19,186 nucleotides of DNA from Euryarchaeota archaeon UBA258 (GTDB lineage Archaea; Thermoplasmatota; Poseidoniia; Poseidoniales; Poseidoniaceae): contig DAPR01000026.1 in the NCBI GenBank assembly GCA_002502605.1, positions 1-19,186 of the forward strand, given 5' to 3'. The position numbers and the translations under genes are program-made. Under the pieces are notes generated by a model, which was not told the origin of the DNA, searched no databases, and saw only the letters and a program-made list of their open reading frames with translations. Within the stretch, counting starts at the first letter, position 1. Every line of letters starts with the position of its first letter. Shown one piece after another: positions 1,445 through 15,820 of the stretch.

Positions 1445-4400
1445 TCAGAAGCGCTTGCTTCCACTGCCACTCTTACCGAGTTTGACGCCGCCATAGGCGA
1501 CAAGAGCAATCAAAGCAAGGATCAGGAAGGTCATCCAAATTGAATCTTCGCTGGTGGTTACGATGTTGTATTCCACTGAAAAGTCACCTGCAGTGATGTT
1601 GTCCGCAACAAATTGCGTGTCATCACCAACAACCTCGACACGGTAGTCGAATCGTTGGCTACCTGCATTCATTGCTCCAACATCAAACACTGCGTTGCCG
1701 GTGCCTTGGGCAGGGACGCTAATGGTTTGTGCCTCGTATTCAGTACCATCCATGTGCGTCAAGTAGACGATCACGCTTCCGGTCGCATCGAGGAAGCCGA
1801 AGTTCTCAATTGGCACGATCACTTGTGCGTTCTCATCGTCTGCGTCATGAGTGCTGGCTTGCTGAACCTTAGAGTCCGTGAGACGGAGGGAAATCATAGC
1901 CTGCTTCAATTCGACGTCGAAAGATTCTGTCTCTACGCCATTTTCGCTTGTCACAGTCACGCTCACAGTCTTTTGTGTGCCGTCCCAATCAGAGGCAGCG
2001 AACACAGTGAATGCTTGGGAACGGGTATCGTCCTTAGCAATGGTCACCACTGATTCCATTGGGGTTACTTCCCAGCCTTCTGGGATGTTATCTGCCAGAG
2101 TGATGGTGAACGAATCGTCACCGTTACCTGTGTTTAGAAGATCGAAGGTGAACTGTCGATTAGAATCGAATGGTACGCCGAGTTCAGTGACCTCATCATT
2201 GATCTCCAATCCGAAGGTTTGTGGAACTTGCACGTCAATGGAGATTTCGCTCGAAGCACCAGCAACTGTGCTGATTCGAACCTTCACCATGTGCGCATCT
2301 TCGAGATGCCAAGCTTCAGACTGGTTCGCAACATGGACACGCACTGGGATTGTAGCGGTCTGCTCTACAGTCGCATCGCTAGCGTTTGCACCGACACCAA
2401 GGTTGATGTCGTAGGATTCGACCCAATCGGTTCCGTTGTAGAATTCCACAGACCATAGACTGCTATCAGGAGCAACACCGATGGATCCACTCACAGTGAA
2501 GACATCGTTAATTTCTGTACCCTGATAGTCGACATCCAAGTCGAATTCGATTGTTTCGTAGGCTTCTCCCGAAGGAATCGCCATCAAGTCAGTTGAATCA
2601 GCGTCAATCATGGTCGCATTGACAAGTGTTCCAGTCGCCATCGAAAGGGCGCTGTCTGAGTTCGTAGAACGAGTGTAGGAAAGGACGATTGGTGAACGAC
2701 CTTCACCCACCGATGTTTTTCCACCAGCGATGTATTCCATATCGAGTCCGTCGTCGTGTTGTACGGTCATGAAGGTTGAATCAAAGTCAACATCTTCAGC
2801 TGGCATCAAGAGGGTCAGGGTACCATCAGTTCCAATTGGCATGTTCCAAGCAACATCATCGCCAATGGAGACGGTGACATCCACAGTTCCGTTGATCATC
2901 GATGCGCCATCGGAATCTGCACCGGCATGGTGGTCAACGAGGGTAAAGTCCGTCCATTCAGTGCTGAGATCAACCCAGCCTCCAAGTGCCATTTCCAGAT
3001 CCAGCGTTGCTCCGGTTGCAACGGTTGCATCAAGCAAACCAATTGCTACGCCGCCACCGTTCTCATCGGCGTCGGCTTGTGTCACCACAACGATCCACTG
3101 CCCTGGAGCGATGTCTGCATTCCATGTGAGCACACCATCGCTGACGGTGCTGGTGAGCGTGACTGGGTCACGCACTGCTGCATCCAATGTTGGGTACAAG
3201 ACAATTGTTGCCCCATCCAAACGTGAGGCATCGTTGATGTCTGTCACGTTTCCGGAAACAGCCACATTCCCAGCAATGACTTCAATGTCATGCGATTCTG
3301 GGTTGTTTTCAACAGGGTAGGCGCTTGAGTTGCTTAGATTGTAGACTTCCGTGGTGAATCCGTCCTTGGTCACAGTCACGGTGTAGTCGTCGTCAACTGG
3401 CACAAACAGTGCCCAAACACCGTTAGCATCCGTGGTGACGTTCGTGTCAACGCTTGATGTGTTGCCCATGATTTCCACAAGGAATCCTTCGACACCTTCG
3501 CTGATGCCAGGGGTGTCATCTTCGTTAAGGTCCCAGAACACCTTGCCACCAATCTCGACTTCGAGGTCGGCAGTCATCACACCCAAATCGAGGGTTCCGT
3601 TGACTGCATCGAATGGTGCATCAAAGGTGTCCATTGACCAGTGACGTTGTGGAGCTGTTTCGTTGAGGAAGAGGCTCCATGCCCCTGGCATCATATGTTC
3701 GGTAACGAATCCAGTCTCATTTGACTTGGTGAGTGTGATGTTGCCATAGCCGTCATGGCTTACTGCAGTCACACGAACATCCGTCATGTTGTTTCCGCTG
3801 CTTGTTTCCTGTAGTTGGAAGGTCACTTCGACGGTTTCAACGGTGCTCAGAGCCAAGTCAGTGCGCACTAAGGAATCAGAACCAACAGCAAGTGGTGAAC
3901 GGAGGATCTCCGTGGCGTTCTCGTTGGCGATGAATGGAGCCACAATGGCGACCCAGTCTCCACCGGGAACATATCCGTAGAAGGAACCATTTGCATCACT
4001 TTCAATGTTGTACCATAGGTCCTGTTCCGCTTCATAAAGAAGGAATTGCTTCTCAATTGCATCACCAGAGGCGTTGGTCAGTGTACCGGTCACGAGGTAA
4101 TCGTTTCGTAGCGGCATATCCATAGCGTCTTCAATGGCATCTAGACCGATGATCAGAGGCTGGAGAGCGGTCACGCCACCTAGTGCGTAATCGCTGGCAT
4201 TTTCCAAATCAGGTGTTGTGTAGTTGAATTGCACCGAATAGGTTCCCGGTTCCAAGGTGAGCGTGATCACACCTGGTGAGGTGTAGTCATCAGCAGTGTA
4301 GTTCATTTGAGCCCCATGGTCGTTGAGTGGGACTGCAGAGAATGAAGGTGACACCAAGGTGCCATTCTCAAAGGAAGCATCGTTGCCAGCATCCATGAAG

Positions 4401-7400
4401 AAATTCAAGGTCACTTCTTGGTGGGCTGGGTTGGCAAAGAGTTCGATTGGAGATGGAGGCTCACCGGACTCGCCGTCAATGTTGAAGTTCTCGACACCAT
4501 CGATGTTGAGGACAGCATCAATAGCGTTGAAGTCCCATTCACCGTCTTGTAGGTAGAAGGTAAATTCTCCACCCTCTGTGATTTGAGTTCTCCATTCCAA
4601 GCCGTCTGCGTTGGTGGCTACAAGGGTCTGAGCAGCCCATCCCGGAACCAAATTGTCCCACAGTGATGTGTTCTCGTAAAGGAACACAAAGCCACTTGTC
4701 GAGATTGCAGGTGCTAGATACATGATGCCCATGTCGAGTTCATCCTCGCCGTCTAGAGCGATCAATTGTCCACCAGTGTAGGTGGAGAAGAGGCTGATGG
4801 TGGTCATGTGGAAGTCTTGGCCATTCGGCAAGCGCATGCTGTAATTTCCATCAACATCAGTCACGGTTGTGAAACTGAGGTCGCCAGCAATGAAGTCGAT
4901 GCTCAAGCCGGAAGCAGGATCGCTTTCAAGCAACTTGATTTCATCTGAGTTCTCGAGCCATTGTTGGTAGTTTGAGGCATCGAGGTGAGTGCGGATGGTT
5001 CCATTGACCCAAGTGGAGACTGCGTAGGTGCCGTCGAACATCATGTCTTCCGTGTCAAGCTCAAAGTGGCTGAAGAGAATATATTCTCCATCTGCATCGT
5101 CTGACATGGTGTAAGCGCCCATTGGCAATTCAATGTAGACAACACCATTTTCATCCGAGGTGGCATTGATTGGCGCCATGAGGGCATCATCATTGGTGAA
5201 GGTCACGACACGGCCAGCAACGCTGAGTAACGATGTTTGAGTTTCTACATCAACCGGTGCAACAAGTTGAACCGTGACGTCATGCATTTCTGGAACATCC
5301 ATGCTTAACGAGAAGTTCTCAGAATCATCACGGACAAACAAAGTGTCATTCAATTCATACCAGCCATCGTTGTCAACGTCGACTCGGTAGAAGTATTCAC
5401 CCGGTGCCAGTGGGCCATAGGAGAATGTACCGTTTTCATCAGTGATGATGTCCACGGCAAACTCTTCGCCAAGTCCTGTGTCAATCAATTCAATTGTTTC
5501 GTTCGCAAAGACTTGGCTGAAGAAGTCTTCTAGGGTGTCTTCAAACAGAGACCCTGGCATCGACATAGCCAAATCATAGGATGGGGTAATACCGACGACC
5601 ACTGGGTCCGGGAGAAGAACTTCCTTTCCGTTATCAAGTTGGGCAATCATGTTGTACATTCCCGGAACAAGACCGGTGATGTAGAAGGACCCTGGTTGAA
5701 CCATCGATCCAGCAAAGTCACCTTGACCGATGAACAATCCAGTTCCGTTCACGGTTCCAATTCCTTCGAAGGAACCAGTAGCCTCAAACGTTGCATTCAC
5801 AACTTCGGTCATCAAAGTGGACACACCTTGAGAAGTCAAGCGTCCATTGGCGATGATTTCACCATCGAGCATGTAGGTGGTCAGTGCTCCATCGGTCGAC
5901 TCAGCGCAAACCGTTTCGTTGGTTGGCATTGAGTAGGTGCCGTTGTCTTCGATGCAGTCCACGATGTTCTCATTCGAGACCCAACTTGCTTCAAGGCTAC
6001 CGACACCGTTCCATGTACCGTTGCTGGTGTACGTTCGCTTATCGGCAATCGAGCGGGTAAAGGTACCCGTGAAATCTTGGGCAAAGGCCACGCCTTCGCT
6101 CTCGAAGGTACCATTTTCGGTAAAGGTCGCTTGACCGGTTCCTTGGAGAATTCGGCTTTCTTCGGAGGTGAAGGAACCGTTTGTTGTGGTCAGAGTGTAA
6201 TTTTCTGTCATTGACCAAATGCTACGGAGCACGAACGTTGTGTCCACGAGTGGATCGCCGTTGAACGATTCTGCACCCGACCACGAAACGAGACCGGACA
6301 CACCGCTGCTTTCCACACCAATATCCATGGCTTCTGTCACATCAGACACACGATCTGCTTGTTCCTCAGTGATGTTGAGTTGAGTTTCGCCCAACCAAGT
6401 CATGTTGGCGACTTCTCCGAGAATACCAGTGATTGCGTTCACTTGTCTGTCATCGTTGAATTCTGTGAGAATGTCTGCAAGACCTTCTGCGAATGAACCT
6501 GCTCGGATGCTATCACGTGCGTTGGTCGGGTCGTAGTCTCCTGCAAAGGCAGAAACTCGAATGCGACCAGCAGGAGCGTCAAAGCTCCAAGTTCCATCAT
6601 CAGCAGCATCAACAAATCCAATTGGGACCCAGTATGTATCTGAATCCAAATCTTCAGCGCCGGTGCCGGAGAATGCGTCACGCTCGATCAACAATCGGAT
6701 TCCAGACAGACCTTCGCCGTTATCGCTCATCGAAACTTGTCCGGAAATTTCTGCTCCGGAGTAGTACTTCATGATCTTGACATAGGTGTTGGTCTGGCCA
6801 ATGGTCACGTTAGGATCTTCATTGTACCAGTTGCTGATGACGAAGTGGTTGGACATAGCACCCGGAAGAGGAAGGGCTTGACTGAGTGCGCTACCTGGGC
6901 TACCTTGCTGTCCAAAGTGCTGTGCTGGTTGCGGGTTTGAGGATCCTGCTTCAATACCAAGCGTCGATGCACCATAACCAACGTAAGTGTTGGCAAGCAT
7001 GGTGTCAAAGAAGGCAGGGTTGTGATCAACACGCACGTCTTGAACTTGCAAAGGATCGATATCTGCACCTGCTTGTTGGTTGAGGAAATCTTCAGTGATT
7101 GCAGCATCGACTTCTTCACGGGTCATTTCATCTTGGAATTCTCCACGGGTGGTTTCGTACACTTCATCCATGAAGGTCCCGATGTCTTGGCCACTGAGGA
7201 TGGTTGGTGCGCCAAAGATGCCCATTGGTTGACCACGGTTGTAACCTGCATCTGCAGTGTAGCGTCCAGCACGTGGGTAGAGACGGCTATCGATAGCGAA
7301 GTAGCGGATTTCATGGTCTCTTTCGACAAGTTCACCTGGTGCGCCGTAGTAGTCTTGTACGGAGTAATACCCTTCCATGTTAATCAGGTCATGATACAGG

Positions 7401-10400
7401 TCGACAATTTGGCCTTCATCCAATGAATTGGACAACAACTGTACGGTCAAAGCCAAGCGAGCGTTGACACGGTGAATGTTGGTCGAAACGGATCCGAATT
7501 CTTCAATCATATCTTCAGTGTACCAGTAATCGTTGATGATGTAATGGGTCGTCTCTGAGGAAGAATCCTGTGCGGAACGGATGTTGTTGGTGAACGTGCG
7601 TTCAGCCTCAGAAAGTTCTGTCCAATCATCACCTTGGCATGTTGTCGAAAGCAATTCGGTGCACGGAATTTGCTCACCGTCGTTGTAGATGCGGTAGACC
7701 ATCTGACTGGTATCGAATGCACCGTCGACTTGATGGTAGCCCTCTGCCATGACAATGTCACGGTTGGACTTGATGACCTTGAAACTGCTTTCGATAACGA
7801 GGTTCTCCATCTTCTCCAAATCAGAGTCAGTGTTGATGGTGTCAAAGAGTTCCATTTGCTCAACAGTGAGGTGCTTAGCAACGTTGTTGTAGAAACCAGA
7901 TGTCAGAGCGTAATTGTCTCCATTTGCGTTGTTGTAGGCAATGTCACCTTGACCAAGTTGCCAAATGAACATCGAGACGAGGTCTTCTTGGGACTGAGCC
8001 AAAAGCATGTTACCAGTAGCGGGGATACCGGACTGGAAGTTGTCAGAAACTGAGGGGTGTTCACCTTGGTTAAGCGCTTGGAATCCATAGTCCCACCATG
8101 AGACAAACGCTGGCCGTTCCGTGTATGGACTATCTGTATCCTGATCAGCCAACCAATCGTAGGCTGCATTCCAACTGTTATCGTTGAAGCCTGAACCCAT
8201 TGAACCGAGGTACCAGTTGCCATCGTATGGGCTATCATCCAACAAGGAGAAACCGGCAAATTCGACTCGTAGTGCGTCAGGGATGAGGTTGAAAATCGTT
8301 TCATCGAGTTCTTCTTCCGCAGCCACGGTGGATGGAATTGCTGCATCGAGACCGTAGGTTGCTTGTTGTCCAAACAACATGATCATGATCAAAAGGATAG
8401 CCGAAAAGTTTGGAGTTCGCCAAACGGCCTTTCGAGCTCCGCGAATTCGATCTTCGGGTGTGCGAATGCCGTACTTCTTCCAAGCACGAACCATTCCGTC
8501 CCAGTTTGCCCACTTCCAAAGAGAGACAATGCCCCACGCACCAAGCACAGCGATAGCTGGAGTTGCGTTGAACATGAAACGTGCAGCAGACCAGGCCATG
8601 TAGGATGCTGCGAGAATCCAAACACCAAAGATGAGGTTGGTGTGCTTGCGCTCACGCAAGCCGGAGAAGAGGCAGAGAACACCCATGACCAATGCCAAGA
8701 GGAAGGTAATCGGTCCAAACTGTGCGAACAATTGTCCACGATCTGTTGCGTTTGCTTCAGCGACTGTTCCGAAAATCTTGGTCTTGGTAAAGTAACCTCC
8801 ACCAGTGAACAGGACGTCCCACGCATTCGAGAGATCTGCGACCTTCAAAAGGTAAAGAATGCCAAAGAACACGCCACCGCTTGCGGCAAGTACACCAAGC
8901 ACGAGCAACCACGGCTTGTCTCGGAATCCTGTTGTCACGAAGGCAATAGCAATCGTAAAGATTGAGATGAACAAGAAGGGTTGTAGGCCTGTGCCATCGA
9001 GCACCAAGTTGATTTGAGGGTTTCCATAGAATGGAAGTGCCATCAGGAAGTTCACTGCAAGCATCGACAAGAACAGCACACTGAGGGTGGTTGAATCCCT
9101 GCGTCGGAACATGTTGAGCGCAACTTGAAGCGCATAAGCAAGGAACAAAATCGCCGGTCCGACAATGAATCCCTTCCAACCAAGCGAAACGACACCGAAA
9201 GACACACCGGCAAGCACCGCATAGGAAAGCGCAGCTTGGCGTTCATTGGCAACTGCAGAGAAGGACTTCAAGAAAGTCGACATCGAAGGCGATGTTTCTC
9301 GCAACAGGCGATCTGATCCTGCATACTTTGCTGCCTTGAGCCAGAACATGAAGCCCATCGTCAAGAACAGCATGATGAATGCGTCGTGGTCAGCGAGAGC
9401 GAAGGTGGTGTGTGAAACGTGAGCTGGCATGAAGGCGATGAGCCATGCTGCGACAACTCCAGCCTTTTCGTTAACATGTTCACGGGCAATGGCTGCGACT
9501 GGAAGAATGGTAAAAGCACCATAGATTGCAGGGAGGACGAGAATTGACCACCAAACTGCATCTTCTGCCCCAACAAAGGGTTGCAACAATCCTGCAAGGA
9601 TTGCGATTGACCATGTGAACAACGGCGGACGAGGGTTGATGCCACCAACAGGGTAGTGTCGGTCAGCATCGAAGATCATGTGAGCGTTGTTTGCCAGGAT
9701 GTAATCGACGACTCGCTTCATGTACCAAGGGTCTGAACCACCGGTCATGTCCCACGTGTTTGTCCCTAGGGAATTCATAGAGGGCAAGACATACCATTGT
9801 GTTCGAATCACGAGGCCGAAGAAGAATGCCAAGCCAATCATGATGTTAGCCCAGTGGGCGTTCCAGAATTTTCGTGCACCGGAGGGCTCGAATTCGCTTC
9901 GGTTTGACCAGCCACCCCATTGGTCGCCAGTGGCGATTACGTAGATAACAGCGCAAATGAAGAAGGTAAAGGCAAGCCAAATCAAAGCTCCAGAATTATC
10001 GGCAACCAGAGGACTGTCAACGTCTCCAAGAAGGCCCGTTTCATACCAAGATGAAACCAAGTAAAGAGCCCACATCGAACCAAGGAACATGGAACGGGTG
10101 TACCATCGCTCTGAGACCATACCGGCGATGATTAAAGCGACCATACCGGTGAAGAAAGCGCTCCAGAATCCGAAGTATCCGTGGTAGGCGGCGAGTTCGG
10201 GGTATGCGTTCACAACAGGATCACTAAACGGTCCAAAGAGATTGAACATCAGTTGTTCATCGTTCATCAAGGTGTGGAAATGCCAAAGGCTTGCAATGTG
10301 CGCAAGCGCCCATACACCCAACCCGATTTGGAGTGGGAGCGTGGAGCGGTTCCATGCGCCATCACCGTCGGTGATGTGAGAGAACCAGCCCTTCGATGAA

Positions 10401-10999
10401 GAAGGCGAAAGGACGCCACGGGCGAGAACTGCCGCAAAAATCCCAAGGATTGTAAACAGCATAGCGTAGCTGAAGAATTGGTATCCAATTGCCGCACGGT
10501 ATGCGTCCAAGACGCCGATGGACTCACCGGTGGACATGGCGAGGCTGCTGGAGAGCGTGTTTGCGACGTGACCGGATGCAAGGAGACCAAGTTCAACACC
10601 AACGGCGGCAAACATGAGCACATTTGCCCATTCGAATGCTCCGCTCATCACCAAAAGGTGAACGCCGAACATCACGATGAAGAACATCAATGCGGTAAGA
10701 GCACCAAGTTCAGCCATGTAGACAAGTTCTGCACCGACCAGAGCAACAACCAGAGAAACGAGGGAAAGGGTTGACTTGGAAAGTGAGACTGTGCCAGTGA
10801 CTTGGACCATTCGTGGCGTGAGACCGAGCGATGCCGCCACAAGGACGACAAGCATTGGGGTCAGGTTGTCTAGGTTGAGATCGAAGGTCATACCAACAAT
10901 CTGTGTCGCTGCGAGCGCAAGAAGCACTGCAAGGGGGGCAATAAGCCACCCGAGCATAGGTGCAGGCGCTGGGCGCATTTCGGGGTTTTTCGTTTCCAT
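1445..10999 (-). CDS. aglB: Giant oligosaccharyltransferase STT3/AglB with N-terminal membrane module and huge beta-domain extension
   Basis: 3184 residues in one uninterrupted frame, several times the usual AglB length (roughly 600-1000). AglB moves a lipid-linked oligosaccharide onto Asn of N-X-S/T sequons at the outer face of the membrane. Catalytic features are intact: GSDP (Asp423, first DxD), DHD (537-539, second DxD), TVAE (745-748, the SVSE/TIXE glutamate in external loop 5) and WWDYG (968-972, sequon pocket). DxxKxxxL at 1060-1067 may be the DK motif. Order: residues 1-380, about ten extra membrane helices; 381-880, STT3 membrane domain; 880-1415, periplasmic-type catalytic domain; 1416-3150, tandem beta domains; 3154-3171, transmembrane helix; then a short basic tail ending SKRF. 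A GAGGG ribosome-binding site 6 bases before the ATG sets the start. The subtilase gene follows. The STT3 identity is firm; the role of the two extra modules is unknown. Confidence 0.95.
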   Translation of the reverse strand: METKNPEMRPAPAPMLGWLIAPLAVLLALAATQIVGMTFDLNLDNLTPMLVVLVAASLGLTPRMVQVTGTVSLSKSTLSLVSLVVALVGAELVYMAELGALTALMFFIVMFGVHLLVMSGAFEWANVLMFAAVGVELGLLASGHVANTLSSSLAMSTGESIGVLDAYRAAIGYQFFSYAMLFTILGIFAAVLARGVLSPSSSKGWFSHITDGDGAWNRSTLPLQIGLGVWALAHIASLWHFHTLMNDEQLMFNLFGPFSDPVVNAYPELAAYHGYFGFWSAFFTGMVALIIAGMVSERWYTRSMFLGSMWALYLVSSWYETGLLGDVDSPLVADNSGALIWLAFTFFICAVIYVIATGDQWGGWSNRSEFEPSGARKFWNAHWANIMIGLAFFFGLVIRTQWYVLPSMNSLGTNTWDMTGGSDPWYMKRVVDYILANNAHMIFDADRHYPVGGINPRPPLFTWSIAILAGLLQPFVGAEDAVWWSILVLPAIYGAFTILPVAAIAREHVNEKAGVVAAWLIAFMPAHVSHTTFALADHDAFIMLFLTMGFMFWLKAAKYAGSDRLLRETSPSMSTFLKSFSAVANERQAALSYAVLAGVSFGVVSLGWKGFIVGPAILFLAYALQVALNMFRRRDSTTLSVLFLSMLAVNFLMALPFYGNPQINLVLDGTGLQPFLFISIFTIAIAFVTTGFRDKPWLLVLGVLAASGGVFFGILYLLKVADLSNAWDVLFTGGGYFTKTKIFGTVAEANATDRGQLFAQFGPITFLLALVMGVLCLFSGLRERKHTNLIFGVWILAASYMAWSAARFMFNATPAIAVLGAWGIVSLWKWANWDGMVRAWKKYGIRTPEDRIRGARKAVWRTPNFSAILLIMIMLFGQQATYGLDAAIPSTVAAEEELDETIFNLIPDALRVEFAGFSLLDDSPYDGNWYLGSMGSGFNDNSWNAAYDWLADQDTDSPYTERPAFVSWWDYGFQALNQGEHPSVSDNFQSGIPATGNMLLAQSQEDLVSMFIWQLGQGDIAYNNANGDNYALTSGFYNNVAKHLTVEQMELFDTINTDSDLEKMENLVIESSFKVIKSNRDIVMAEGYHQVDGAFDTSQMVYRIYNDGEQIPCTELLSTTCQGDDWTELSEAERTFTNNIRSAQDSSSETTHYIINDYWYTEDMIEEFGSVSTNIHRVNARLALTVQLLSNSLDEGQIVDLYHDLINMEGYYSVQDYYGAPGELVERDHEIRYFAIDSRLYPRAGRYTADAGYNRGQPMGIFGAPTILSGQDIGTFMDEVYETTRGEFQDEMTREEVDAAITEDFLNQQAGADIDPLQVQDVRVDHNPAFFDTMLANTYVGYGASTLGIEAGSSNPQPAQHFGQQGSPGSALSQALPLPGAMSNHFVISNWYNEDPNVTIGQTNTYVKIMKYYSGAEISGQVSMSDNGEGLSGIRLLIERDAFSGTGAEDLDSDTYWVPIGFVDAADDGTWSFDAPAGRIRVSAFAGDYDPTNARDSIRAGSFAEGLADILTEFNDDRQVNAITGILGEVANMTWLGETQLNITEEQADRVSDVTEAMDIGVESSGVSGLVSWSGAESFNGDPLVDTTFVLRSIWSMTENYTLTTTNGSFTSEESRILQGTGQATFTENGTFESEGVAFAQDFTGTFTRSIADKRTYTSNGTWNGVGSLEASWVSNENIVDCIEDNGTYSMPTNETVCAESTDGALTTYMLDGEIIANGRLTSQGVSTLMTEVVNATFEATGSFEGIGTVNGTGLFIGQGDFAGSMVQPGSFYITGLVPGMYNMIAQLDNGKEVLLPDPVVVGITPSYDLAMSMPGSLFEDTLEDFFSQVFANETIELIDTGLGEEFAVDIITDENGTFSYGPLAPGEYFYRVDVDNDGWYELNDTLFVRDDSENFSLSMDVPEMHDVTVQLVAPVDVETQTSLLSVAGRVVTFTNDDALMAPINATSDENGVVYIELPMGAYTMSDDADGEYILFSHFELDTEDMMFDGTYAVSTWVNGTIRTHLDASNYQQWLENSDEIKLLESDPASGLSIDFIAGDLSFTTVTDVDGNYSMRLPNGQDFHMTTISLFSTYTGGQLIALDGEDELDMGIMYLAPAISTSGFVFLYENTSLWDNLVPGWAAQTLVATNADGLEWRTQITEGGEFTFYLQDGEWDFNAIDAVLNIDGVENFNIDGESGEPPSPIELFANPAHQEVTLNFFMDAGNDASFENGTLVSPSFSAVPLNDHGAQMNYTADDYTSPGVITLTLEPGTYSVQFNYTTPDLENASDYALGGVTALQPLIIGLDAIEDAMDMPLRNDYLVTGTLTNASGDAIEKQFLLYEAEQDLWYNIESDANGSFYGYVPGGDWVAIVAPFIANENATEILRSPLAVGSDSLVRTDLALSTVETVEVTFQLQETSSGNNMTDVRVTAVSHDGYGNITLTKSNETGFVTEHMMPGAWSLFLNETAPQRHWSMDTFDAPFDAVNGTLDLGVMTADLEVEIGGKVFWDLNEDDTPGISEGVEGFLVEIMGNTSSVDTNVTTDANGVWALFVPVDDDYTVTVTKDGFTTEVYNLSNSSAYPVENNPESHDIEVIAGNVAVSGNVTDINDASRLDGATIVLYPTLDAAVRDPVTLTSTVSDGVLTWNADIAPGQWIVVVTQADADENGGGVAIGLLDATVATGATLDLEMALGGWVDLSTEWTDFTLVDHHAGADSDGASMINGTVDVTVSIGDDVAWNMPIGTDGTLTLLMPAEDVDFDSTFMTVQHDDGLDMEYIAGGKTSVGEGRSPIVLSYTRSTNSDSALSMATGTLVNATMIDADSTDLMAIPSGEAYETIEFDLDVDYQGTEINDVFTVSGSIGVAPDSSLWSVEFYNGTDWVESYDINLGVGANASDATVEQTATIPVRVHVANQSEAWHLEDAHMVKVRISTVAGASSEISIDVQVPQTFGLEINDEVTELGVPFDSNRQFTFDLLNTGNGDDSFTITLADNIPEGWEVTPMESVVTIAKDDTRSQAFTVFAASDWDGTQKTVSVTVTSENGVETESFDVELKQAMISLRLTDSKVQQASTHDADDENAQVIVPIENFGFLDATGSVIVYLTHMDGTEYEAQTISVPAQGTGNAVFDVGAMNAGSQRFDYRVEVVGDDTQFVADNITAGDFSVEYNIVTTSEDSIWMTFLILALIALVAYGGVKLGKSGSGSKRF
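1550..6754 (-). other. STT3 C-terminal extracellular extension: tandem beta domains, 41 sequons
   Basis: Residues about 1416-3150 of the STT3 fusion. Visible units are carboxypeptidase-regulatory/Cna-B-like repeats with a recurring D-x-x-G-x-F turn and a P-G-x-Y/W strand (for example near 1416-1485, 1850-1870, 2330-2350 and 2520-2545), and an SdrD-B-like unit starting GGKVFWDLN at 2484. A NEW3/COG1470-like domain lies at about 2925-3020 (LLNTGNGDD, IPEGWEVTP), and a CARDB-like domain at about 3035-3145. Only two cysteines, C1682 and C1698, were seen in this part. I counted 41 N-X-S/T sequons by eye. Domain edges are approximate. Confidence 0.75.
6755..9859 (-). other. STT3 catalytic core (membrane domain plus soluble domain)
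   Basis: Residues about 381-1415, the part that corresponds to a normal archaeal AglB. It starts with a transmembrane helix at about 384-399, followed by the first external loop with GSDPWYMKR. About a dozen further helices run to residue 880. The soluble domain holds WWDYG at 968-972 and ends near VKIMKYYSGAEISG (1407-1420), a strand typical of the end of AglB peripheral domains. C1113 and C1121 could form a disulfide. Confidence 0.85.
8084..8098 (-). other. WWDYG catalytic signature of STT3
   Basis: Codons for Trp968-Trp969-Asp970-Tyr971-Gly972. This pentapeptide is the hallmark of STT3/AglB/PglB and binds the Ser/Thr at the +2 position of the acceptor sequon. It is intact, which argues for an active enzyme. 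Confidence 0.97.
9860..10999 (-). other. Extra N-terminal polytopic membrane module of the STT3 fusion
   Basis: Residues 1-380 lie before the first canonical STT3 helix. Hydrophobic segments are visible at about 17-37, 46-60, 75-95, 98-118, 122-145, 171-195, 220-240, 274-294, 301-317 and 335-357, so about ten helices. Between them is a loop with DGDGAW near 211-216 and a Trp/His-rich stretch at 230-245. I do not recognise a family. A role in lipid-linked oligosaccharide handling is possible but has no motif support. Confidence 0.7.
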
Positions 11000-11180: not shown

Positions 11181-12440
11181 TTACAACGCACGATGGCCTA
11201 TGTCCGTCCGGTAATGGCTGCCTTCGAGATCGATCTTTGCTAGAAGGTCGTAGGCGCGTTGAGCTGCCTCATCAAGCGTGTCCCCTGTGGCCGTGCAAGC
11301 AAGAACCCTACCTCCGGTGGAGACAACATCTCCAGCATCGTTGCGGCCGGTTCCAGCATGGTTAATCCAAGCCGTTTCAGTTGGTGCTTGGAGGCCTTTG
11401 ATTCGACGACCCTTAACGGGTGAAGCAGGGTAGCCCTCCGCAGCAAGCACAACGGTGAGTGCGTGCTGACGATGGAACTCAACGTTCACTTCAGACAGAC
11501 GATCCGTGGCTGCGGCGAACAGCAGTTCATGAAGGTCTGATGCAATGAGAGGCAGGGTGATTTGGCACTCGGGGTCACCAAATCGAACATTGAATTCAAC
11601 CACACTTGGCAGCCCTTCAGAAGTGATCATCAGCCCGACGTAGAGAACACCCCGATAGGGTGTTGGTTGGGACGAAAGGTAGGCATGCATGGGTTCGACA
11701 ATGTCACGAACGGAGCGGGAGAGGACATCCGGCGTGGCAACTGGAGCGGGGCAGTACGCCCCCATTCCACCGGTGTTGGGGCCAAGATCGCCATCGTAGG
11801 CTCTTTTGTGATCTTGACTCGGTGGCAGACAGACAAAACCAGAGCCATCCATCACCACGAGCATGCTCGCTTCCTCACCTTCTAAAAATGCCTCAAGGAG
11901 CACTTTTCCATCGGTAGCAATTGACGCTTCAATGAACGCTTTTGCCTCGCTTCGATTCGCTGTGACAACAACACCCTTGCCACCAGCGAGTACGTCGCGT
12001 TTCACCACCCAAGGCTGACCCTCGAACCGGTCCAATGCCAACTCAATATCTGATTCTGACGTCAAAACTTGGTACTCTGCAGTTGGCACACCTGCAATGC
12101 TCATGACTTCCTTTGCATGTAATTTTGAGCCCTCCAAAACTGCGAGTGCTTGAACTGGACCGAAGCATGGGATACCTACCGCTGTGAGTTGATCTGCAAG
12201 AAAATCACACAGTGGTGCTTCGGGACCGACAACAACCAACGTTGCTTGGAGGTGCTGTGCGAGGGCCACTAAGCCTTCGACATCAGAAGCGGAAACTGAA
12301 TGGTTGGTCGCCACCTCAAGGGTACCAGCGTTGCCAGGGGCACAATGCACCGAATTGACTTGCTTAGAGGAGGCTAAAGCCATGCACAAAGCATGTTCTC
12401 GCCCACCGCCACCAACGACCAAAACTGAGCCTTTCGCCAT
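11181..12440 (-). CDS. purD: Phosphoribosylamine--glycine ligase (GAR synthetase)
   Basis: 419 residues, normal for PurD. The enzyme joins glycine to 5-phosphoribosylamine using ATP, the second step of purine synthesis, in the cytoplasm. Visible family features are VVGGGGREHAL at 8-18, GPEAPL at 72-77, SKLHAKEVM at 105-113 with GVPTAEY at 117-123, the ATP-grasp strand VVKRDVLAGGKGV at 145-157, QDHKRAYDGDLGPNTGGMGAY at 209-229, the signature EFNVRFGDPECQ at 282-293, and the C-terminal domain with HAGT and STGGRVLACTA. The usual KADGLAAGKGV is KRDVLAGGKGV here, a mild departure. An in-frame ATG nine codons upstream (12467) is possible, but it lies inside a TATA-like box and the family starts at the GGGG loop, so 12440 is preferred. 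Divergent from carS across 142 bases. Confidence 0.97.
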   Translation of the reverse strand: MAKGSVLVVGGGGREHALCMALASSKQVNSVHCAPGNAGTLEVATNHSVSASDVEGLVALAQHLQATLVVVGPEAPLCDFLADQLTAVGIPCFGPVQALAVLEGSKLHAKEVMSIAGVPTAEYQVLTSESDIELALDRFEGQPWVVKRDVLAGGKGVVVTANRSEAKAFIEASIATDGKVLLEAFLEGEEASMLVVMDGSGFVCLPPSQDHKRAYDGDLGPNTGGMGAYCPAPVATPDVLSRSVRDIVEPMHAYLSSQPTPYRGVLYVGLMITSEGLPSVVEFNVRFGDPECQITLPLIASDLHELLFAAATDRLSEVNVEFHRQHALTVVLAAEGYPASPVKGRRIKGLQAPTETAWINHAGTGRNDAGDVVSTGGRVLACTATGDTLDEAAQRAYDLLAKIDLEGSHYRTDIGHRAL

Positions 12441-12463
12441 GACTCGTATGGACCGCACCCACT

Positions 12464-12470
12464 CCATAAT
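12464..12470 (-). promoter_or_regulatory. TATA-like box of purD (leaderless)
   Basis: ATTATGG on the minus strand is centred 27 bases upstream of the chosen purD ATG at 12440. No Shine-Dalgarno sequence is next to that ATG. This spacing is what a leaderless archaeal transcript would need, and it favours the shorter start. Confidence 0.45.
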
Positions 12471-12550
12471 GTCATCGCGGCTCCATGCACAAGCAAAACT
12501 TCACGTTCGTCAACGGGGCAGTGTTCAAAGGCCCTCGTTGGTCATCGGCC

Positions 12551-12557
12551 TTTATGA
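12551..12557 (+). promoter_or_regulatory. TATA-like box of carS
   Basis: TTTATGA is centred about 29 bases upstream of the carS ATG at 12583, consistent with a leaderless or very short-leader transcript. A run of six G at 12571-12576, six bases before the ATG, could alternatively act as a weak ribosome-binding site. Confidence 0.4.
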
Positions 12558-12582
12558 CAACCAACTATACGGGGGGCCTCTG

Positions 12583-13236
12583 ATGAATTTCTTCATGCTC
12601 TTTCTCCTGTGCTTGTGGCTGTACTTGCCAGGTTTTTTGGCGAATTCTTTCGCCATGATGTGGGGTAAATGGCTGCCAAAAACGGGGTATGGTCCTTGGC
12701 CCATTGACGGTGGACGAACCCTCAAAGATGGAAATCGAATTCTAGGTGACGGAAAAACTTGGAACGGCCTCATTGGGGGATCGCTCACTTCAGGGCTATT
12801 GTGCATGTTGATGGTTCTGGCGACCAATGACGGCAGTGCAGCCGGAACGATTCAAGACAACACTGTCTTGTTCTCATCACCGCTAGCAGGTTCCGCAGGG
12901 ACTTGGTTTTCTGTCGAGAGCACCATGCTCTCAGCCTTCATTCTCGGTACCTTTCTCGGTTTCATGTGCCTGGTTGGTGACAGCACAGGCTCTTTTTTCA
13001 AGCGACGCAGAGGGCTTAAGCGAGAAGGTGAAATTTCGTCAAAGGCCCCAATCCTTGACACGCTGCCCTTCGCCATTTCCGTCTTTTTGGCCGGTCAACT
13101 CTTTCTCGGCACATCGTGGCTGGCTGCTGAAGAATTGAGAATTCCAATGATTGCCCTTGTGTTGTTCACCCCAGTCCTTCACCGAACCTTCAACCTTATC
13201 GGTTACAAGCTAGGATGGAAGGATGTTCCGTATTGA
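12583..13236 (+). CDS. carS: CDP-archaeol synthase (CarS, DUF46 family)
   Basis: 217 residues. CarS activates unsaturated archaeol with CTP to make CDP-archaeol, the branch point to archaeal polar lipids, in the cytoplasmic membrane. Family motifs are PIDGGRTLKDG at 40-50, RILGDGKTWNG at 52-62, GDSTGSFFKRRRGLK at 132-146, a following LDTLPF segment at 158-163, and the C-terminal W-K-D-V-P-Y. Hydrophobic segments lie at about 3-20, 64-80, 115-131, 163-180 and 188-200. It is longer than the usual 170-180 residues, mainly through a loop at about 80-113 between two helices. The frame is open well upstream, but those codons overlap purD antisense and lack family sequence; the ATG just before the first helix is the natural start. 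The next gene starts 40 bases downstream on the same strand. Confidence 0.93.
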   Translation: MNFFMLFLLCLWLYLPGFLANSFAMMWGKWLPKTGYGPWPIDGGRTLKDGNRILGDGKTWNGLIGGSLTSGLLCMLMVLATNDGSAAGTIQDNTVLFSSPLAGSAGTWFSVESTMLSAFILGTFLGFMCLVGDSTGSFFKRRRGLKREGEISSKAPILDTLPFAISVFLAGQLFLGTSWLAAEELRIPMIALVLFTPVLHRTFNLIGYKLGWKDVPY

Positions 13237-13246
13237 CGGAGCGAAG

Positions 13247-13253
13247 ATTATAA
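13247..13253 (+). promoter_or_regulatory. TATA-like box of the CARDB-like surface protein gene
   Basis: ATTATAA is centred 27 bases upstream of the ATG at 13277 and lies just after the carS stop codon. No ribosome-binding site precedes the ATG. The arrangement predicts a leaderless transcript starting at or near the ATG, independent of carS. Confidence 0.55.
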
Positions 13254-13276
13254 CGCTCCCACCGTTAGAAACCACC

Positions 13277-14986
13277 ATGCGAACTGCGTTTTCTTTGGTG
13301 GCACTTCTCCTCATATCAACGACTTTGGCTACAATGGCTGTATCTGCTGAAGTGGTCAGTGATGGTTCGAACATCACGGTTTCAGGCAGCGAAACTTGGA
13401 ATGAATCATCCATCGATACCGACCTAACCGTTCTTGAAGGTGCCTCCCTCCTCATCGAAAACACAACAAGCATTGCTCAAGATGTGACCATCACCGTGAA
13501 TGAGGGTGCAACCCTGACGGTCTCGGGAGACCTGGTTGGCACGGAATTGGACGCTGGATTGCTGGTTTTTGATGACACTTTGCTGCATCTTAACTTTGGC
13601 GACATTGCTGAAACAGGCCAAGTCAGAATTAATTTCGATCATGTCATTCCTGAAAGTGCCATGTTCAATGTGACCATTGGAAATGAAACTCAAAATGCCG
13701 TTGGGTCTGACTTTGTCGACATACCTGCGTCACTGAACGGTACTTCGTTGACCGTCGAGTTTGACATTTACTATTTCTTTTCCACTCAGATCACAAGCGT
13801 ACAAGCCCTGCACTCTGGAGCAAGCGGCACCGTATTGGTGAACGCTGAAGAACTCAATCACACAGCTGGGAGTTTGAAGTGGAATGCAGCAGCGTTTGAA
13901 CTTCAGGTCTTTGGCACGCTCACCGTCAACGATGCAGATGTTTCTGGCGCATCCATTGTCTGTTCAGGTGCATGTTCCGTCACCGATGCAACACTCACGG
14001 GAAGCGCACCAATTCATGTCGAAGATGGAGGAAGCCTCGTGGTCGAATCTTCAGTTCTTGTGGGTTCGAGAACCGATGAGGACATCATCGTCCATGACAC
14101 TGCGAACATCCAATACACAAACAACACGGGTACTGGCGGCCTAACCGATGCGTGGATTCGCCTGCTCTCACAGCGCACACTGCACACCAATGCTGGAAAC
14201 ATTACTGTTCACGCGACAGGTTTGGGCTATTATGGGAGCACCATTGACAACGTCACAGACCAAAATGGACATGTCGGGATCGCTTTGGGAGAGCAGGCAC
14301 GTATTGTCGAATGGGTCGATGGCGAAGGACAATACCATGAAGAAAACGCTGAAATTGTATTGACTCTAAGTTCAAGTTGGGGAAATTTCGCCACAACGGT
14401 TCCCGCGCCAAAAACACCAATCAGTGAGGTTTCGGTTCCACTCCCATACATTGATGTTGTTTCAATCGACCTTGAAGACAACAAAGCCTACATCGGCAAG
14501 AAGATCAGTGGCGACATAGTGGTCAAGAACACTGGTGATGTGGCCGTTACAGGGGTCAACTTCTGGTGCTATGTTGGGGATGAACTGCAAGACACCACTC
14601 AATTGGTCGTCTCGTTGGAAGCAGGTGAAAGCAAGACCATGTACGTCTCATGGTATGGCAACACCAATGGAAGTCTTGCTTTGGAGTGCCGAGCAATGCT
14701 TCCAACCGTCTTGAATTCAATTGCCTCGGATGTATCGAACCCAAGCGGTTCTGCCTCAGGAGAAATCGCATGGACCAATGCCGAGGAACGAGAAGATCAA
14801 CCCTTGATGATTTACGCTATGCTTGTCCTGATCATCCTTGCAGGGACCTTCATCGTATCTCATCAAGCATCAAAGAAGGTGATTCAATCTCAGCAAAGCA
14901 AAATCGAAGAGGAAGAAGCCGCAAAGGAATACCTCGAAGATGAGGAGGCCTTGGAAGAGGCATCTTCACTTGAAGATCAAGCATAA
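13277..14986 (+). CDS. Secreted membrane-anchored protein with beta-rich ectodomain and CARDB-like domain
   Basis: 569 residues, function unknown. Residues 1-24 form a clear signal peptide ending AVSA. Residues 25-380 are beta-rich, with short repeated strands of the type G-T/S-L-T-V (for example 77-84, 212-218 and 251-256), suggesting a solenoid, and several N-X-S/T sites. Residues 389-472 look like a CARDB/DUF11-type adhesion domain (IVVKNTGDVAVTGV, then LEAGESKTMYVSW). C229 and C233 may pair, as may C431 and C471. A transmembrane helix at 509-528 is followed by a 40-residue, very Glu-rich tail that is probably a cytoplasmic helix. The frame is open for 18 codons upstream, but only this ATG starts the signal peptide and sits 27 bases from a TATA box. 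It ends 23 bases from the convergent PKD-protein gene. Confidence 0.85.
   Translation: MRTAFSLVALLLISTTLATMAVSAEVVSDGSNITVSGSETWNESSIDTDLTVLEGASLLIENTTSIAQDVTITVNEGATLTVSGDLVGTELDAGLLVFDDTLLHLNFGDIAETGQVRINFDHVIPESAMFNVTIGNETQNAVGSDFVDIPASLNGTSLTVEFDIYYFFSTQITSVQALHSGASGTVLVNAEELNHTAGSLKWNAAAFELQVFGTLTVNDADVSGASIVCSGACSVTDATLTGSAPIHVEDGGSLVVESSVLVGSRTDEDIIVHDTANIQYTNNTGTGGLTDAWIRLLSQRTLHTNAGNITVHATGLGYYGSTIDNVTDQNGHVGIALGEQARIVEWVDGEGQYHEENAEIVLTLSSSWGNFATTVPAPKTPISEVSVPLPYIDVVSIDLEDNKAYIGKKISGDIVVKNTGDVAVTGVNFWCYVGDELQDTTQLVVSLEAGESKTMYVSWYGNTNGSLALECRAMLPTVLNSIASDVSNPSGSASGEIAWTNAEEREDQPLMIYAMLVLIILAGTFIVSHQASKKVIQSQQSKIEEEEAAKEYLEDEEALEEASSLEDQA
14962..14977. repeat. 16-bp palindrome at the convergent gene ends
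   Basis: ATCTTCA-CT-TGAAGAT is a perfect 7-bp inverted repeat with a 2-base centre. It sits in the last codons of the CARDB-protein gene, 33 bases from the convergent PKD-gene stop codon. It could serve as a hairpin for both transcripts, since the 23-base gap between them has no T run. Confidence 0.3.
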
Positions 14987-15009: not shown

Positions 15010-15798
15010 TCATAGCGGGGCGGTCATGGTCCATTCTGTCAAGGGCTTGTGCCAATCTCGTACTTGATCGGTTTCTAGGCGCAATTGAAGCCCCTCACCT
15101 GGTTCAAATTCCAATGCAGTGAATTCAAAGGTCACCGTGAGTTCATTGGTTCGAAATGTATCATCGAAAAGCACTTCTTGATCCATCACGGCACCATCCA
15201 TTGTTCGTTCCACATACACCCTGACGTGGCATTCTTGAAGCGGATTTCGAAGAGAGCAGGATTCGCTGCTTCCGTCGTGCTCAACCGTCACGAATCCCTC
15301 ATAATCGATTAGACCCTGCTTCGGTACAAGATTCACGACGGTGTCTTTGGCCGTTGGGGCGCACACGCATTCCATGTTATCAGACTCGACGGTTCCGCTT
15401 TGATCAACAGTGAGTTCGAGGCTTGATTGCTCAATGCTGTCAACGGTCACAGCGGTTGCCGTCACTGTGTAGTGGCCCGCATCTGCGAATGTGTGAACGA
15501 CCGAGAACCCGGTTGCCGTGCTACCATCACCAAAGTCCCAAGTAACAACGCCGTCCACTTCCGAAGCAGTCAACTGGAACTCATGAAGGCGTTCTGTGAT
15601 TACATTTTCCTCATCATTGTCGCCTTCATCGACTTCAAGGAGCGTATACTCATTCATCCCAAACGCTTGATCAACATCGATTTCGAAGGTGGAATTGCTT
15701 GATGAGGAGGACGCTGTAAGACTTGTGAGAACCGAGCCAGCGGTAGCGCTTAGAATCAGCAAGAAAACCAATGTTGCAACCGATAGTGTGTACTTCAT
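15010..15798 (-). CDS. Secreted PKD-domain protein
   Basis: 262 residues, function unknown. Residues 1-22 are a signal sequence (hydrophobic core TLVFLLILSATAG), followed by a Ser-rich linker (27-37). A PKD domain spans about 75-131, with the hallmark WDFGDG at 87-92 and the paired HTFADAGHYTVT at 102-113. PKD domains are Ig-like beta folds common in archaeal surface proteins. Residues 140-262 form a second, unrecognised beta-rich region with four cysteines (C144, C146, C181, C190) that may make disulfides. There is no C-terminal membrane helix and no lipobox, so the protein is either released or held by an uncleaved N-terminal helix. A TTG two codons upstream is in frame, but the ATG at 15798 is preferred because a TATA-like box lies 27 bases before it. 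The 915-residue surface protein gene lies just upstream on the same strand. Confidence 0.85.
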   Translation of the reverse strand: MKYTLSVATLVFLLILSATAGSVLTSLTASSSSSNSTFEIDVDQAFGMNEYTLLEVDEGDNDEENVITERLHEFQLTASEVDGVVTWDFGDGSTATGFSVVHTFADAGHYTVTATAVTVDSIEQSSLELTVDQSGTVESDNMECVCAPTAKDTVVNLVPKQGLIDYEGFVTVEHDGSSESCSLRNPLQECHVRVYVERTMDGAVMDQEVLFDDTFRTNELTVTFEFTALEFEPGEGLQLRLETDQVRDWHKPLTEWTMTAPL

Positions 15799-15820
15799 AG
15801 CCAAAGGGACTTTTCAATTG

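Follow-up and report, generated by a model that had tools for sequence, protein, structure and literature searches.

The locus analysed here raises the question of why an oligosaccharyltransferase (OST) should be continued into a giant arm, and what such an arm might do. The window, i.e., the whole analysed stretch of 19,186 nucleotides of contig DAPR01000026.1 from Euryarchaeota archaeon UBA258, comprises a gene in which an STT3-type catalytic core is followed by a long chain of predicted beta-rich domains (Table 1). Archaeal OSTs are generally regarded as single-subunit enzymes with less than about 1,100 residues. We thus asked whether this fusion is real, how widely it occurs and which role of the arm fits the data best.

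Table 1. Positions of the giant gene, its parts and its neighbours within the window.
Feature	Position	Strand	Basis
Giant oligosaccharyltransferase gene, 3,184 aa	1445..10999	minus	ATG start, 0 internal stops; PF02516 53.4 bits vs cut-off 24.5
N-terminal membrane extension, residues 1-380	9860..10999	minus	about nine hydrophobic peaks
STT3/GT-C membrane core, residues 381-885	8345..9859	minus	PF02516 at 422-683; aligns with A. fulgidus AglB 21-441
First acidic motif S-D423-P (SDP 422-424), AglB D47 position	9728..9736	minus	alignment
Second acidic motif D537-H-D539, AglB D161/H163 position	9383..9391	minus	alignment
TVAE motif 745-748, E748 = AglB E360 position	8756..8767	minus	alignment
Soluble catalytic domain and conserved continuation, residues 886-1404	6788..8344	minus	AglB_core-like match 961-1005, below cut-off
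WWDYG motif, residues 968-972	8084..8098	minus	sequence
First prealbumin-like unit, residues ~1405-1500	6500..6787	minus	repeat HMM
Eleven tandem prealbumin-like units, residues ~1701-2790	2630..5899	minus	by-eye anchors; CarboxypepD_reg 42.4 bits vs cut-off 32.3
Ig-like region ahead of anchor, residues ~2791-3140	1580..2629	minus	FixG_C and choice_anch_T matches, both below cut-off
C-terminal membrane helix, residues ~3150-3174, then basic tail	1478..1552	minus	hydropathy, sequence
Downstream neighbour: single-pass S8 subtilase, 406 aa	159..1379	minus	PF00082 130 bits; 65 bases past OST stop
Upstream neighbour: phosphoribosylglycinamide synthetase (purD)	11181..12467	minus	present in 29/32 loci
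CarS CDP-archaeol synthase and three predicted surface proteins (CARDB, PKD, TSP_3)	12304-13236, 13223-14986, 15010-15804, 15879-18626

An earlier note, made from this stretch of DNA, had described one uninterrupted frame, with an extra membrane part of about 380 residues before an intact STT3 core and about 1,735 residues of beta domains after the soluble catalytic domain, closed by a second membrane anchor. This layout was borne out. The opposite (plus) strand of 1445-10999 is rich in stops, all four motifs named for the core (SDP, DHD, TVAE and WWDYG) were located, and hydropathy averaged over 31 sequences of the order Poseidoniales gives about nine separate peaks N-terminal to residue 380, an end of the STT3 membrane segments at about residue 875 and then a single strong peak at residue 3163. 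Because the soluble domain of AglB sits outside, the roughly 2,270 residues between the two membrane parts are likely to be external, and from tethering at both ends it would follow that this ectodomain forms a closed canopy. The beta character of the extension held in part: Pfam matches, mostly below cut-off, and the repeat HMM favour it, and the AlphaFold models, computed from 11 alignment rows each, are of low confidence (mean pLDDT 44.1 for residues 1-1190 and 40.6 for residues 1395-2590). Among the phylum sequences compared, the N-terminal membrane extension of 380 residues was seen in Poseidoniales only, and hhalign found no kinship of it to the core or to the N-termini of five other lineages. 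In two other families (L077, L078), the N-terminus carries a membrane extension of another kind, about 240 residues long.

The assignment to STT3/AglB is based on a PF02516 score above cut-off (Table 1) and on acidic residues at the positions of AglB D47, D161/H163 and E360 (D423, D537/D539 and E748), together with W968-W969-D970; the AglB numbering of the acidic positions follows a passage of PMC7226087. Counted back from the second acidic motif, the residue of the window protein that corresponds to AglB R154 is His530 instead of the metal-site arginine, and this histidine is invariant in order alignments of 11 and 15 rows. The model TIGR04154 (archaeosortase-A-associated STT3) scores below its curated cut-off (173.7 vs 450 bits). 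The genome of the window, which is 78.7% complete, contains one STT3 match. We infer that the window protein is an AglB-type OST, and its motifs predict glycan transfer to Asn-X-Ser/Thr. If compared to A. fulgidus AglB (PDB 3WAJ, 875 aa), it shares the GT-C membrane core, the acidic motifs, a TIXE-type motif, WWDYG and the character of a single-subunit enzyme; however, it is about 2,300 residues longer, owing to the N-terminal membrane extension, the beta-rich ectodomain and the second anchor.

Within the arm, twelve anchors of one pattern were picked by eye; eleven of them lie between residues 1768 and 2724 at a spacing of 87-104 aa and the remaining one at residue 1467. Twelve order sequences served to train a unit HMM, which at 3 bits or more found a mean of 8.2 units per protein in 21 giants outside the training set versus 0.0 in shuffles; the order sequences gave about 12 units, a count that is partly due to the construction of the HMM. 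CarboxypepD_reg matches 15 of 15 order sequences and NOMO1-like_9th 14 of 15 (E<=0.01), the latter below cut-off in the window protein (22.2 vs 27 bits), as is the choice-of-anchor T family (NF041740, 29.8 vs 70 bits). A sequence search of the PDB with the stack gave no match. We consider the units to be probably of the prealbumin-like kind that NOMO is built of, without claiming membership in NOMO.

Since a fusion of this size might result from an assembly error, its conservation was analyzed in detail. PF02516 matches 265 of 292 Poseidoniales genomes, comprising two families, 22 of 22 genera and 33 of 35 high-quality genomes, and 262 of these 265 contain exactly one STT3 match. Among the 150 order matches listed, 104 lie in frames of 3,006-3,321 aa (median 3,193), 23 in frames of 2,000-2,999 aa and 23 below that length. 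Of the six shorter frames inspected, five reach a contig end; the other one, which is its genome's second match, contains ambiguous bases and stops before the contig end. A protein search with the core region matched at least 612 protein clusters among proteins of 1,751-5,572 aa, and the named matches are MAGs labelled Poseidoniales, Poseidoniaceae, 'Euryarchaeota', Thermoplasmatota or plain 'archaeon'. When 31 sequences, one of them a duplicate, were aligned, they proved colinear over their whole length. For residues 886-1404, identity to the second family is 0.38-0.57 per 80-residue block, but 0.21 at 1041-1120. In comparison with four relatives, dN/dS amounts to 0.05-0.08 for the whole gene and stays within 0.04-0.10 for every stack segment, the values for two of the four being rough because dS exceeds 1 there. 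Such low values rule out a fast-evolving decoy in Poseidoniales.

The earlier note had proposed to check whether related genomes keep the fusion and had named a misassembly near position 6755, or a stop codon between the STT3 core and the beta region in relatives, as what would speak against it. The fusion is conserved in the order. All 27 distinct full-length Poseidoniales relatives that were fetched continue across the junction near 6755 (residue ~1415) without leaving the frame, and so do L063, L131 and L067, whose frames are truncated at other places by contig ends; no stop codon was found at the border in any relative examined. A search with the stack only matched 28 of 31 genomes. Its long matches lie within frames of STT3 length or shorter; four of the shorter frames were fetched and all four run to the contig end. 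Three further matches of 67-105 residues lie in other frames of about 1,000 aa (E 9e-5 or weaker), and a separate stack gene without STT3 was not seen in the relatives examined. In favour of an artefact, i.e., a chimeric assembly or a missed stop that fuses two genes, one could cite frame breaks within the gene of the MG-II chromosome CM001443 (L073, near residue 1603) and of one MAG (L066, near residue 1942). However, both are located downstream of and away from the STT3/stack border, and many independent assemblies as well as single-contig genomes of other families read through. The two breaks are possibly assembly errors themselves. Because of the 104 of 150 listed order frames with 3,006-3,321 aa and the stack dN/dS of 0.04-0.10, misassembly or a missed stop at the border is excluded, and we assign virtually no probability to an artefact.

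The giant form is not restricted to this order. In a length survey whose scope was the phylum Thermoplasmatota, 329 of 389 genomes gave an STT3 match, and at least 31 of 54 sampled families possess STT3 frames of 1,860 aa or longer, which rules out a fusion private to one genome or order. Save those cut by contig ends, the giants fetched end in a hydrophobic helix and a basic tail, and the stretch 1229-1490 of the window protein, which includes the first prealbumin-like unit, matches most giant relatives. Giants from cultured sources are Thermoplasma volcanium TVG1271204 (2,076 aa), Oxyplasma meridianum (2,113 aa), Cuniculiplasma sp. SKW3 (2,111 aa) and Caldiplasma sukawensis (2,093 aa), and some database members of about 2,100 aa are already named glycotransferase or AglB. 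Consequently, the interpretation given in the earlier note stands as far as a real, conserved single-chain OST with a doubly tethered ectodomain is concerned, but its view that no known AglB/STT3 protein extends far beyond the soluble catalytic domain does not hold in this phylum. The T. volcanium protein comprises STT3 core, soluble domain, stack and C-terminal helix in the same order as the window protein; this Thermoplasma-type AglB of about 2,100 aa differs in that it lacks the N-terminal membrane extension and has a stack about 700 residues shorter.

In twelve other families, the sequences fetched are all forms of 908-1,430 aa that lack the end anchor. In a midpoint-rooted core tree, the giants fall into two groups with support of 1.0 and 0.87, the second of which includes Poseidoniales and its class sister, and the short forms group together at a support of only 0.30. 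One genome (L109 and L110; G320:C4 and C32) contains two STT3 genes of different subfamilies, with 908 and 1,288 aa. A simple tie of the giant form to the absence of an S-layer is ruled out: Aciduliprofundum boonei has an S-layer, and the family which we take to be that of A. boonei has a form of 2,088 aa.

Is the arm itself modified? In the stack, the ratio of observed N-x-S/T sequons to those expected by composition is 2.25 in the first Poseidoniales family (21 sequences) and 2.09 in the second (10), versus 1.06 and 1.00 for the reversed sequon and 1.05 and 1.03 for D-x-S/T as control motifs; in five further families it is 1.95-2.49. In the window protein, 42 of 48 sequons are located beyond residue 1040. 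Sequon asparagines are better retained than other stack asparagines (0.72 vs 0.52 in the first family, 0.29 vs 0.19 in the second). The window's three predicted surface neighbours serve as a small control: enrichment is seen in one (1.93) and absent from the other two (0.61 and 0.63). The enrichment suggests that the stack is probably an N-glycan acceptor itself. Two sequences, L077 and L078, carry 99 sequons each in the stack (observed/expected 3.4-4.1). Enrichment is weak despite WWDYG in L096 (1.10), L097 (1.23), L113 (1.24), L180 (1.40) and L081 (1.45).

A methanogen family (f17) differs from this picture. Its database relatives are named Methanomethylophilaceae, Methanomassiliicoccaceae or Methanoplasma, and MCR was present in three of three genomes tested. 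PF02516 detects 23 of its 61 genomes; a family member as query matches 60 of 61, including all 36 high-quality genomes and every one of the 14 genera. In 43 of the 61 (11 genera) the match lies in a frame of 1,829-2,555 aa, and the remaining 17 of the 60 matches lie in shorter frames. Of the 33 sequences examined, which represent 11 genera, 28 (from 10 genera) retain no more than one of five catalytic positions, some positions falling into alignment gaps. These 28 degenerate giants (L166-L168, L186-L196, L207-L220) keep the STT3 architecture. Judged by sequence, most of the genera examined retain the long protein after loss of the catalytic residues. One genus of the family was seen in which all five catalytic positions are present, g95, in all five sequences (L183-L185, L197, L198). 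In a sister methanogen family, L179 (G423) has broken OST motifs and its relative L180 looks intact.

The stack sequon ratio of f17 is at most 1.60 over the 33 sequences, and 0-1.2 in g95. Because these five sequences have intact motifs and show no enrichment, enrichment is not a clean marker of an active enzyme, and we reject it as a direct readout of the active site. In four degenerate f17 pairs, dN/dS is 0.21-0.31 for the membrane part; for the stack it is 0.60-0.69 in three pairs and 0.22 in the closest. This fast evolution of the stack would fit relaxed constraint as well as a scaffold. With the unit HMM, six degenerate methanogen giants gave a mean of 3.5 units, and five short forms a mean of 3.0.

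Most Poseidoniales loci share the arrangement purD, giant OST, S8 subtilase, with misses located at contig ends; the subtilase follows the OST in 31 of 32 loci (one pair duplicate). A tblastn search of the class sister, with two loci that are almost identical, did not recover this arrangement. A single hydrophobic segment is present near residue 70 of the subtilase, whose D, H and S motifs were recognized by eye. The subtilase is a candidate for a membrane-anchored partner or processing protease of the giant OST. The order of CarS and the surface-protein genes near the OST is partly kept in near relatives.

Taken together, the reading that we prefer, and to which we give an even chance, is that of an OST with a built-in, self-glycosylated scaffold which is loosely akin to NOMO or to OST accessory subunits. 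According to their motifs, the membrane core and the first soluble domain would transfer a lipid-linked glycan to Asn-X-Ser/Thr of secreted proteins. About twelve prealbumin-like and Ig-like domains would extend from the catalytic domain on the outer face, the last helix would pin this string back to the membrane, and the string itself would receive N-glycans, as suggested by sequon enrichment. It might then serve as a scaffold adjoining the exit of new surface proteins, so that a single chain would do the work of the separate lumenal subunits ribophorin, OST48 and NOMO at the eukaryotic ER. Such a role need not rest on catalysis, since most f17 genera examined retain the protein without the catalytic residues.

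The accessory function of the stack is thus proposed by analogy with eukaryotic subunits. NOMO, a part of the BOS complex of the eukaryotic multipass translocon, is likewise a membrane-anchored, lumenal string of prealbumin-like domains near the translocon, and in a passage of PMC11186639 these domains are numbered up to PLD12. In contrast to the window protein, in which the stack is within the STT3 frame, NOMO is a separate protein without STT3, and the comparison is limited by Pfam NOMO matches below cut-off and by a fold that is widespread. Ribophorin I and OST48 of the eukaryotic OST have lumenal beta domains and single anchors beside STT3; they differ in being separate polypeptides, and the window protein has no Pfam match to them.

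Other roles of the arm have to be weighed against a built-in scaffold. The ectodomain might mainly be a surface coat or adhesion element, the OST being an abundant envelope glycoprotein in cells thought to lack an S-layer. The domain types are typical of surface proteins, the stack is enriched in sequons, the giant is retained without catalytic residues in f17, and the giant form occurs in Cuniculiplasma, whose isolates are described as S-layer-deficient in a passage of PMC5155288. However, the strong constraint in Poseidoniales (dN/dS 0.10 or less) does not favour a coat. An enzyme, moreover, seldom reaches the abundance needed for one, and we consider this reading rather unlikely. If instead the stack were a lid or shield, closing the active site to the environment or excluding folded or foreign acceptors, the topology, which fixes both ends in one membrane, would suit it, as would the giants of Thermoplasma and its relatives, which are acidophiles. 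Yet giants also occur in marine and methanogen lineages, and in f17 the stack is kept where the active site is gone; a lid therefore appears quite improbable.

The f17 giants themselves allow for a different view, namely that they were recruited to another job, such as another transfer reaction or a receptor, and are uninformative on the role of the stack in Poseidoniales. The loss of the catalytic positions in 10 of the 11 genera examined and a fast-evolving stack with few recognisable units speak for it; length, order of the parts and the sequence of the C-terminal anchor, which stay near those of sister methanogens with intact motifs, speak against it. We regard such a recruitment as possible, at clearly less than even chances. 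The scaffold reading can also be pushed further: the Thermoplasmatota OST might be one half of a single-chain glycosylation-and-folding platform, with the arm as counterpart of NOMO and the OST accessory subunits and scaffold work as the conserved function, of which most Methanomethylophilaceae genera would keep an active-site-erased pseudo-oligosaccharyltransferase. This extended proposal is tentative, at clearly less than even chances.

With respect to the literature, the enzyme family and its database members of about 2,100 aa are already known. In passages of PMC9723583, an 'oligosaccharyltransferase' transcript is raised in samples with an active Poseidoniales genus; because nearly all genomes of the order have one STT3 match, this transcript may be the giant OST. 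In a passage of PMC4973528 a referee objects that over-long homologues were dropped from that survey. The long form is absent from passages of PMC9723583, PMC5155288, PMC4973528, PMC2952790, PMC11186639, PMC3750248, PMC10354927, PMC12153357 and PMC7226087. Likewise, the literature searched, which covered subscription papers only in small part, yielded neither the long-form class nor its array and sequon load, nor the degenerate methanogen giants. The work of Nikolayev et al. from 2020 is reportedly on AglB evolution and could contain the long form.

The OST is thus a single chain of 1,860-3,300 residues in 31 or more of the 54 families sampled from one phylum, which include abundant ocean archaea, cultured acidophiles and methanogens, and in most families checked its outer arm has many glycosylation sites. 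Since cultured Thermoplasma has the giant form, the role of the arm is testable. The degenerate giants of the Methanomethylophilaceae would represent a natural separation of the scaffold from catalysis, and they predict that those methanogens either have no N-glycosylation or perform it with another enzyme.
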